Of a stretch of 64,000 nucleotides of DNA, positions 8,176 to 19,917 are shown piece after piece. A program made the position numbers and the translations under genes. Origin of the DNA: Iocasia fonsfrigidae (lineage in GTDB: Bacteria; Bacillota; Halanaerobiia; Halanaerobiales; DTU029); the NCBI RefSeq assembly GCF_017751145.1, contig NZ_CP046640.1, positions 3,700,137 through 3,764,136 on the forward strand, given 5' to 3'. Every line of letters begins with the position of its first letter. Position 1 is the first letter of the stretch. The notes under the pieces are model-generated. The model was not told where the DNA came from. It saw only the letters and a program-made list of their open reading frames with translations, and did no database searches.

Positions 8176-8204
8176 TTTACAAAATTGCTAATTTGTTGTA
8201 TACT
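8176..8204 (+). promoter_or_regulatory. Sigma-A promoter of small peptide gene 1
   Basis: TTTACA (8176-8181) and TATACT (8199-8204) with a 17-bp spacer. Hexamers and spacing are the same as at 19701-19729, which also drives a paralogous peptide. The ~45-nt leader downstream is almost identical in the two loci. Confidence 0.8.
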
Positions 8205-8255
8205 CTAGCCATAACCTTTATAAGACTATAAGAAAATAAGAAAGGGGAGATTAAT

Positions 8256-8345
8256 ATGCTTAAAGATTTGATAATTGTATTATCTCTAACAGCTATAGTT
8301 CTTGTTCCACAACTATTACAGCTGCTCATCACTGATGAAAAGTAG
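8256..8345 (+). CDS. 29-residue hydrophobic small peptide, paralogue 1
   Basis: Very short gene with AAGGGGAG ribosome site, ATG and TAG stop. The peptide begins MLKDLIIVLSLTAIVLVPQL and ends in ITDEK: two charged residues, one hydrophobic span of about 20 residues broken by a Pro-Gln, and a charged tail. It should insert in the membrane. The paralogue at 19781-19870 has the same length and plan and keeps M-L-(K/R)-D-L, V-P-Q-L-L and the final E-K. Its own promoter, conserved leader and terminator argue that it is expressed. The function is unknown; a type I toxin or a membrane-complex subunit are guesses. Confidence 0.75.
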   Translation: MLKDLIIVLSLTAIVLVPQLLQLLITDEK

Positions 8346-8360
8346 GAAACTCGACTTTTT

Positions 8361-8396
8361 AAGTCCCAGCTCCACAAAGAAGCTGGGACTTTTTTG
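8361..8396 (+). terminator. Rho-independent terminator of small peptide gene 1
   Basis: AAGTCCCAGCT pairs with AGCTGGGACTT around a 9-nt loop and is followed by a T run. It lies 15 bp after the stop codon. Confidence 0.85.
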
Positions 8397-9210: not shown

Positions 9211-9888
9211 ATGAAAAATAAAACCCTTAGTAATAGAATTGCAAACGAACTTATGGAATTCATTCGAGAAGGTGACTTTAGTGTAGGAGAAAAGCTACCA
9301 AATGAATACGAACTTTCATCACTACTCGGCGTAAGCCGTAATACAATACGCGAAGCTTTAAGGTCACTTGCTTCACGAAATATTATAGATATCCGTCAAG
9401 GTGCTGGTACATTTATTTCACAAAAAAAAGGTGTAGCAGATGATCCCTTAGGTTTTTCTTTTATAGAAGACCGCCGTAAGCTTACACAAGATCTCATGCA
9501 AATTCGCTGTATCATTGAACCTCAAATCGCAGCATTAGCAGCACAAAACGCAACATTGCATGATATTGAAATCCTCGGTAATTTATGTGACGAATTGGAA
9601 GCATTAATTCGCAAACGACAGGATTTTACACAAAAGGATATGGATTTTCATACTCAACTTGCAACTTGTAGCCAAAACATCGTTATGTCCAATCTTATCC
9701 CTGTTATTTGCGAAGGTATAACAGTATTTTCTTCAATAGTAGCCGAATCAGAGTTTGAACAAACCATCAAATCCCACCGCGAAATCTTTCATGCAGTACA
9801 TGAACGGCGTGCAGCAGATGCACAGCAAGCCATGTTATTCCACTTACTTTACAACCGTAATCGCTTTATCCAAGAAAAAAATCAGTAA
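9211..9888 (+). CDS. FadR-subfamily GntR transcriptional regulator
   Basis: Ligand-responsive DNA-binding protein, 225 residues. The N-terminal winged helix (ANELMEFIREGDFSVGEKLP, NEYELSSLLGVSRNTIREAL, wing RQGAGTFIS) is followed by an all-helical FCD domain. That domain shows D-x3-H (MDFHTQLA) and later histidines (KSHREIFHAVHE, LFHLLYN) that normally bind a metal and a carboxylate ligand. The start has a strong AAAGGAGG site. It precedes the flavoprotein operon and two TGGTAGGA(C/T)GA sites matching the FadR-family consensus TNGTNNNACNA, so it probably represses that operon. Confidence 0.9.
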   Translation: MKNKTLSNRIANELMEFIREGDFSVGEKLPNEYELSSLLGVSRNTIREALRSLASRNIIDIRQGAGTFISQKKGVADDPLGFSFIEDRRKLTQDLMQIRCIIEPQIAALAAQNATLHDIEILGNLCDELEALIRKRQDFTQKDMDFHTQLATCSQNIVMSNLIPVICEGITVFSSIVAESEFEQTIKSHREIFHAVHERRAADAQQAMLFHLLYNRNRFIQEKNQ

Positions 9889-19344: not shown

Positions 19345-19700
19345 TCAATCACTCTCCCTGTATTAATTTTAAAACCAAGAACCTAATCCATTACTACTCT
19401 TCACTACTCTTCTTTCACTCCCACTTTTAACTACTAAACTATCTGCTTCTACATACTCATCATAACTTAGAACTCTCCATTACACCATCTTTTTCTTTAT
19501 TTTATCTCACATTTATTGTCAACTTTATGTCATATATTATTTGTTTTACATTATTTTATCACTTATATTGTATTTTGTCAAAGTGTTCGATGTTATGTCC
19601 GTGTTGCTTATTATAAAAAGGGTATTAATTAAAAAAACCCTATTCCAGAAGTTCTCTTCTAAAATAAGGGTAATTTTTTATTGGATTTTTCTATTTCCCC
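19345..19700. other. Intergenic region between the symporter and the small peptide
   Basis: About 355 bp, very AT-rich. It must hold the symporter promoter (not resolved) and has a hairpin at 19637-19671. No ORF is convincing. Confidence 0.4.
19637..19671. terminator. Hairpin with T tracts on both strands
   Basis: ACCCTATT...AATAAGGGT arms with an inner AGAAG/CTTCT stem; T runs follow on both strands. On the minus strand it could end a transcript running antisense to the small peptide gene. Confidence 0.6.
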
Positions 19701-19729
19701 TTTACAAACTTAAATATTTGCTATATACT
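19701..19729 (+). promoter_or_regulatory. Sigma-A promoter of small peptide gene 2
   Basis: TTTACA (19701-19706), 17-bp spacer, TATACT (19724-19729), as at 8176-8204. Confidence 0.8.
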
Positions 19730-19780
19730 CTAGACATAACCTTTATAAGACTATAAGAAAATAAGAAAGGGGAGATTATC

Positions 19781-19870
19781 ATGTTAAGGGATTTACTTGT
19801 TGTATTAGCAGTTATGGCTGTAATTATAGTTCCACAGCTATTACCATTACTTATTGCTAAAGAAAAATAG
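19781..19870 (+). CDS. 29-residue hydrophobic small peptide, paralogue 2
   Basis: The peptide begins MLRDLLVVLAVMAVIIVPQL and ends LLIAKEK: a short charged N-terminus, a single membrane-length hydrophobic stretch with Pro-Gln in the middle, and a charged tail. The ribosome site AAGGGGAG and the preceding leader are nearly base-identical to those of the copy at 8256-8345, while the coding part differs at many bases but keeps length and residue type. That pattern suggests selection on the peptide. It is bounded by a promoter and a terminator, with no partner gene in the same direction. Function unknown. Confidence 0.75.
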   Translation: MLRDLLVVLAVMAVIIVPQLLPLLIAKEK

Positions 19871-19887: not shown

Positions 19888-19917
19888 CCTCAACTTTATC
19901 TTAAGTTGAGGCTTTTT
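19888..19917 (+). terminator. Terminator of small peptide gene 2
   Basis: CCTCAACTT pairs with AAGTTGAGG and is followed by CTTTTTT, 17 bp after the stop. Confidence 0.85.

Follow-up and report, generated by a model that had tools for sequence, protein, structure and literature searches.

A conserved leader of tandem AUAAG octads, probably a cis-regulatory 5' element, in front of tiny-protein genes of Halanaerobiia

A 64,000-nucleotide stretch of the Iocasia fonsfrigidae genome (contig NZ_CP046640.1, positions 3,700,137 to 3,764,136; hereafter the window) carries two distant genes for 29-residue membrane peptides that share a promoter and a leader. What does such a leader do, and does it belong to these peptides alone? 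An earlier note, made from the letters of the window, described both open reading frames (ORFs), their TTTACA-N17-TATACT promoters, GGGGAG sites and terminators, and all of these lie where it placed them. The note also gave the leaders as about 45 nucleotides with two to four differences; they are indeed alike, but over 44 nucleotides (8210-8253 and 19735-19778) there are no differences at all. The features are collected in Table 1.

Table 1. Features of the two window loci, the candidate small RNA of the same genome and the tiny-ORF families behind the leader (SD, Shine-Dalgarno sequence; TM, transmembrane; sRNA, small RNA)
Feature	Position	Strand	Description and basis
Promoter, copy 1	8176..8204	+	sigma-70/A-type, TTTACA-N17-TATACT; read from sequence and promoter scan
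Octad leader, copy 1	8210..8253	+	44/44 nt identical to copy 2; model R1
Octad units, copy 1	8219-8224, 8227-8232, 8235-8240; SD 8244-8249	+	
Family A gene, copy 1	8256..8345	+	29-aa single-TM peptide MLKDLIIVLSLTAIVLVPQLLQLLITDEK; ORF, dN/dS, homologues, pairwise match
Intrinsic terminator, copy 1	8361..8396	+	AGTCCCAGCT...AGCTGGGACTTTTTT; direct reading, its loop of 9 exceeding the limits of the terminator scan
Promoter, copy 2	19701..19729	+	sigma-70/A-type, TTTACA-N17-TATACT; read from sequence and promoter scan
Octad leader, copy 2	19735..19778	+	identity to copy 1; model R1
Octad units, copy 2	19744-19749, 19752-19757, 19760-19765; SD 19769-19774	+	
Family A gene, copy 2	19781..19870	+	29-aa single-TM peptide MLRDLLVVLAVMAVIIVPQLLPLLIAKEK; ORF, dN/dS, homologues, pairwise match
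Intrinsic terminator, copy 2	19888..19917	+	terminator scan
Candidate sRNA, own genome	C1:313479-313633	-	L123/L280; relatives L281-L285, L288, L289, L291
Family A			28-29 aa TM peptide; MRDLLI..M.GIV..PQL.ELY...NN
Family B			50-57 aa zinc ribbon; CPxC...NWS...YCxxCSGxLY; Pfam DUF7577 at 3e-7
Family C			30 aa, Gly/Ala-rich; MKKVxKKxAGAGAxVGxxxAYGSxLVxxW
Family D			33-42 aa, amphipathic; MLNSLFTFIK...EGRRIESN...VK

The two ORFs are genuine coding genes under purifying selection, since the dN/dS ratio between them is only ~0.15 (NG86; dS 1.72, dN 0.26), far below the value near 1 that the note had named as telling against it. Differences fall at the three codon positions in the proportion 11/3/15, and the peptides are 59% identical and 86% similar in a pairwise test (E 2e-11), which bears out the proposed paralogy. 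A second pair, from other genomes (L067/L068), gives dS 0.80 and dN 0.06 by the same method. The family A peptides have one TM span, with 19-residue Kyte-Doolittle maxima of 2.1-2.75. No gene neighbourhood common to both own copies was found: one copy lies near epimerase and GntR genes and the other near symporter and chromate transporter genes, while in Halanaerobium-like genomes family A sits between a Crp/Fnr regulator and an inorganic pyrophosphatase. The description of both genes as lying on the plus strand amid minus-strand genes holds only in part, as plus-strand genes begin at 9211 (a GntR/FCD regulator). A long hairpin upstream of copy 2 (19638-19669; 19637-19671 in the note), which the note had named as a possible end point of antisense transcripts, does resemble a minus-strand terminator, but copy 1 has no counterpart; it could stop read-through from the minus-strand chromate transporter genes.

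The leader has diverged far less than the coding parts, as the note had observed. Its two copies are identical at 44 of 44 positions (one mismatch in 55 with the -10 box included), the promoter spacers differ at 7 of 17 positions, and the 60 bases upstream are just 35% identical. Synonymous sites of the same pair differ at 67%, near saturation, so that conservation of the leader greatly exceeds what is neutral within its own transcript.

Each window leader consists of three (T/A)ATAAG units in an exact 8-nucleotide register that runs into the SD. Both have at least two ATAA(G/C)/ATAAG units 8-9 nucleotides apart within the transcribed leader, together with their own sigma-A-type promoter and an SD fused to the last unit, and so belong to the octad-leader group as it is defined here. 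Among 44 leaders with a distance reading, units are spaced by 8 nucleotides in 56 cases and by 9 in 6, with several others near multiples of 8; in this survey the promoter was wrongly picked by the automatic step for copy 2 and for a small number of other leaders. In mRNA leaders the first unit lies at widely differing distances from the -10 box, the last one passes into the SD (ATAAGAAAGGG or ATAAGGAGG) in nearly all cases, and the orientation of the octads relative to transcription is constant at the listed sites. The SD-proximal AGAAAGG matches the 3' tail of the 16S rRNA of the same genome (CCUCCUUUCU). Complementarity of the octads themselves to an extended 16S tail was considered and rejected, as that tail, CACCUCCUUUCUAAGG, fits the SD-proximal AGAAAGG alone.

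In single-sequence folding, the A/G-rich leader barely folds. Pairing between the start of the leader and the spacer separating SD and AUG is slightly stronger in native than in swapped combinations, though only at p 0.02-0.04, and it is strong in no more than a subset of the leaders of families A and B; a conserved leader hairpin is accordingly not favored, and neither the single-sequence folds nor the swap test yielded a conserved RNA fold. No inhibitory fold over the SD was found, and the window has no Rfam covariance-model match at the gathering score.

A 27-nucleotide core taken from four leaders of the own genome, searched with 3 mismatches allowed, matches that 3.93-Mb genome at four places, all of them perfectly and none at an intermediate level (reversed control, 0); no reverse-complement copy of the leader was seen there. 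These sites are the two window copies, a 28-aa hydrophobic peptide (MLKGILTLVSLLAISLLPSILYTISFVH) and a 50-aa zinc-ribbon protein. The same pattern has 17 further sites in 100 related genomes, all in the same class and none in the 42 genomes from other classes (reversed control, one); 14 of the 17 lie directly upstream of ORFs of 28-52 codons from four unrelated families. A sequence-only model built from 17 leaders (R1) scores both window leaders, which are among its training sequences, at 44.1 bits (E 9e-13). At E<=1e-5, R1 finds 31 sites in 59 genomes from the class, of which 27 precede ORFs of 28-57 aa, three precede larger genes and one lies in a non-coding RNA. Tiny ORFs were a consideration when the 17 training leaders were picked, so an unbiased tally takes in only the 14 sites outside the training set, namely 10 tiny ORFs, one non-coding RNA and three larger genes. 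Across the phylum (249 genomes, E<=1e-5), three genomes match, all in the class; at that threshold no genome sampled from the rest of the phylum has the leader. Named matches identify the class as Halanaerobiia; in a public genome collection of 84,980 species, five of seven are Halanaerobium or other Halanaerobiales.

The octads can also be seen from the side of the genes. Among 28 zinc-ribbon orthologues found without use of the leader, ATAA(G/C)-ATAAG pairs occur at period 8 in 16 and at period 9 in 7, with other spacings near 0; background genes have period-8 pairs in only 8 of 541 (Fisher p 4e-18; 400 kb each of two genomes). No octad pair precedes any of 278 ordinary genes in 400 kb of the own genome, where such pairs are confined to a few loci. 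A general microsatellite was rejected for that genome, in that spacing counts have no period-8 excess outside the listed loci. A Halobacteroidaceae-like genome (G057; L213-L232) differs in this respect: (T/A)ATAAG pairs spaced by 8 nucleotides number 17 per 400 kb against about 2 for other spacings, which makes them about eight times commoner, and most are intergenic. Outside the class, a metagenome-assembled genome labelled Clostridium sp. UBA10317 has a long (TATAAGAA)n microsatellite of octad unit length running into an SD (L131:5456-5542), in front of a gene that resembles a ribosomal protein L11 methyltransferase (putative).

The leader stands before four or more families of unrelated ORFs, 28-57 aa in length (Table 1). 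The further copies that the note had called for do exist: the 59 genomes hold six clear members of family A, each of which has the leader, and a further copy that is divergent. Representatives of families A, C and D have no significant match in Pfam, PHROGs or NCBIfam; for the 28-29 aa peptide, Pfam and NCBIfam give nothing at E<=1 and PHROGs a single match at E 0.19. A phage or plasmid origin was rejected, as the leader pattern is absent from a viral collection and the peptides from phage and plasmid records. Larger genes with a similar pre-SD sequence include those of a HAD hydrolase and EamA and, more weakly, EF-G and phosphoglycerate mutase (putative names, read from sequence). The link between octad leader and tiny ORF is thus strong, though not exclusive. 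Several family D mini-genes are interspersed among ordinary genes within 2-3 kb in Halanaerobium-like genomes (L114, L115, L118, L120); each has its own octad leader, and several have ATAAG-like units just past the stop codon.

The non-coding RNA that shares the element is a candidate sRNA with nine copies in six genomes of the family. Its 5' end, ACCCCTTATAAGANCATAANNNWATAAGAAARG, lies in the 8-nucleotide register of the leader, and the element keeps a nearly constant distance of 13 bp from the -10 box. The middle lacks conservation, and no common ORF was found there; the RNA also has a nearly invariant stem (CCCCUUAUAA/UUAUAAGGGG), the tail UUUUUCAUUUUUUAUCCUCCUUUU and a terminator. This tail is the exact antisense of a generic ribosome-binding site (RBS) plus AUG. 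The segment GGGGAUAA can pair upstream, leaving the tail free (predicted -41.3 kcal/mol), or with UUAUCC of the tail, covering it (predicted -39.8), so that the two predicted states lie within 1.5 kcal/mol. A specificity of the tail for the tiny-gene leaders was rejected: duplex energies fall at the 1st-27th percentile relative to 278 ordinary RBSs, with one of five in the top 2%. The RNA is similar to RsaOG/RsaI (Rfam RF01775) in size, in its long unpaired U/C-rich tail before the terminator and in a full-length alignment; it nevertheless scores 32.3 bits against a gathering score of 50, many of the pairs are broken, and by this test it does not belong to that family. Two shorter relatives in the same genome (C1:81982-82059 (-), L290, and C1:110430-110513 (-), L292) have their own promoter and terminator and share the CCC/GGG stem, with an anti-RBS tail that is present in the former (UUUUUCAUUAUCCUCC) and partial in the latter; neither has octads.

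These observations would appear to call for a shared reader of tandem 8-nucleotide units. We favor, with a probability of roughly 0.55, the reading that the leader is a cis-regulatory 5' element of a class-specific regulon of tiny proteins, which most likely works at the RNA level by way of a protein that binds the repeats. A housekeeping-type promoter would start a short mRNA with between two and four (N)AUAAG units in an 8-nucleotide register within its first ~40 nucleotides, the last passing straight into the SD; an oligomeric single-strand RNA-binding protein (or a translation factor) may read the units in tandem and thereby set the translation or the lifetime of the tiny-protein mRNAs jointly. 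Carrying the octads as a 5' tag, the RBS-antisense sRNA would be put into the same circuit. A reader at the RNA level is preferred because the array in mRNAs follows the SD in position and the sense strand in orientation, and keeps no fixed distance from the promoter.

The main rival places the same octads in DNA, as an operator of tandem 8-bp direct repeats past the start site on which a cooperative repressor blocks initiation or elongation. Ribbon-helix-helix proteins use tandem sites of 7-8 bp, and the strict 8-bp register, the position of all units just downstream of strong sigma-A-type promoters, the nearly fixed promoter distance in the sRNA gene and the intergenic octads of the Halobacteroidaceae-like genome, which are not tied to an RBS, are all consistent with this. 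Because the mRNA element sits between promoter and SD, such an operator just downstream of +1 keeps an appreciable, if clearly smaller, share of the probability. Yet an operator needs no fixation to the SD, which the last unit meets in nearly all mRNAs, nor does it account for a promoter distance that varies widely in mRNAs or for an orientation that is constant. The fusion to the SD would also be explained if the leader were only a strong translation-initiation and mRNA-stabilizing region, that is, an unstructured A-rich standby site with an extended SD and no dedicated regulator. The A/G-rich, barely folding sequence, the match of AGAAAGG to the 16S tail and the similar short arrays before the putative EF-G and phosphoglycerate mutase genes point the same way. 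Richness in A and U, however, needs no single sequence at an exact period, and no octad pair precedes the ordinary genes sampled in the own genome. Moreover, the element, including AAGAAARG, is kept in the sRNA, where nothing conserved is translated. A pure enhancer accounts neither for this nor for the exact register, and we consider an enhancer alone unlikely.

The earlier note had also listed a type I toxin among the possibilities; family A would then be toxic to the membrane and kept silent by an RNA antisense to the leader. Type I toxins of the Fst/Ldr type are ~30 aa long, with one membrane span and charged C-terminal residues. Family A resembles them in all three respects, and it occurs as paralogous, stand-alone genes with a strong RBS. 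It differs from them in that no antisense gene was found, the leader is common to unrelated ORFs, and no profile matches: Pfam, PHROGs, NCBIfam, phages and plasmids give none. Since unrelated proteins and an sRNA carry the identical leader, it is no special feature of the membrane peptide; no inhibitory fold was found on the SD, and the two loci have no conserved minus-strand promoter, the hits being weak, near the shuffle mean in number and at non-matching places. No reverse-complement copy of the leader was seen in the genome either, so the antisense idea is not supported, and the toxin is very improbable. What survives from the possibilities then listed is that the leader bears a signal of its own, namely regulator binding, with RNA the likelier level.

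Returning to the RNA-level reader, we can tentatively extend it to the sRNA. One class-specific RNA-binding regulator might read the AUAAG octads both on the tiny-protein mRNAs and on the RBS-antisense sRNA; by binding the first octad of the latter it would open the CCCCUUAUAA/UUAUAAGGGG stem, so that GGGGAUAA captures the anti-RBS tail UUAUCCUCC. This model is speculative, and we hold it to be rather improbable as it stands. If it were true, a regulon of tiny proteins and the switching of an RNA that silences translation in general would be under the control of a single factor.

Several known systems are built in a similar manner. The sites of TRAP and HutP are tandem NAG triplets, in which an oligomeric protein reads purine-containing units that recur periodically along an unstructured leader; in TRAP sites the units are 5-6 nucleotides apart and the triplet alone is fixed. 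The octad leader likewise has periodic purine-containing units in an unstructured leader, but a core of 5-6 nucleotides (ATAAG) recurs every 8 nucleotides in place of a triplet every 5-6. The closest published case that we found is an array in marine Beggiatoaceae, where TAACTGA heptamers are directly repeated in a fixed register just upstream of start codons and were proposed to bind a post-transcriptional regulator, with members of the S1, Csp or Csr families as candidates (PMC4679880). Most of those heptamer arrays, of which there are up to 169 sets, lack an SD, and the ORFs behind them follow no common pattern (PMC4679880). By contrast, the octad unit, (N)ATAAGNN, has 8 nucleotides and is fused to a strong SD, and each genome has only a few such loci, most of them at tiny ORFs and the sRNA. 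The octad strings themselves were not found in the published literature searched. We rate the octad leader as a case of tandem-repeat leader control, attached here mostly to tiny genes and an sRNA. Together with the heptamers of Beggiatoaceae, it points to a possible recurring control device in which short tandem repeats are fused to the RBS.

Tiny proteins of bacteria are hard to recognize, and ORFs of 30 codons usually go unannotated. A conserved leader that marks several unrelated families offers a sequence handle by which all of them might be traced in these salt-loving anaerobes of one class. That the leader is shared implies a putative common regulator that has yet to be described, and the proposed anti-RBS sRNA with an octad 5' end would make a directly testable circuit.
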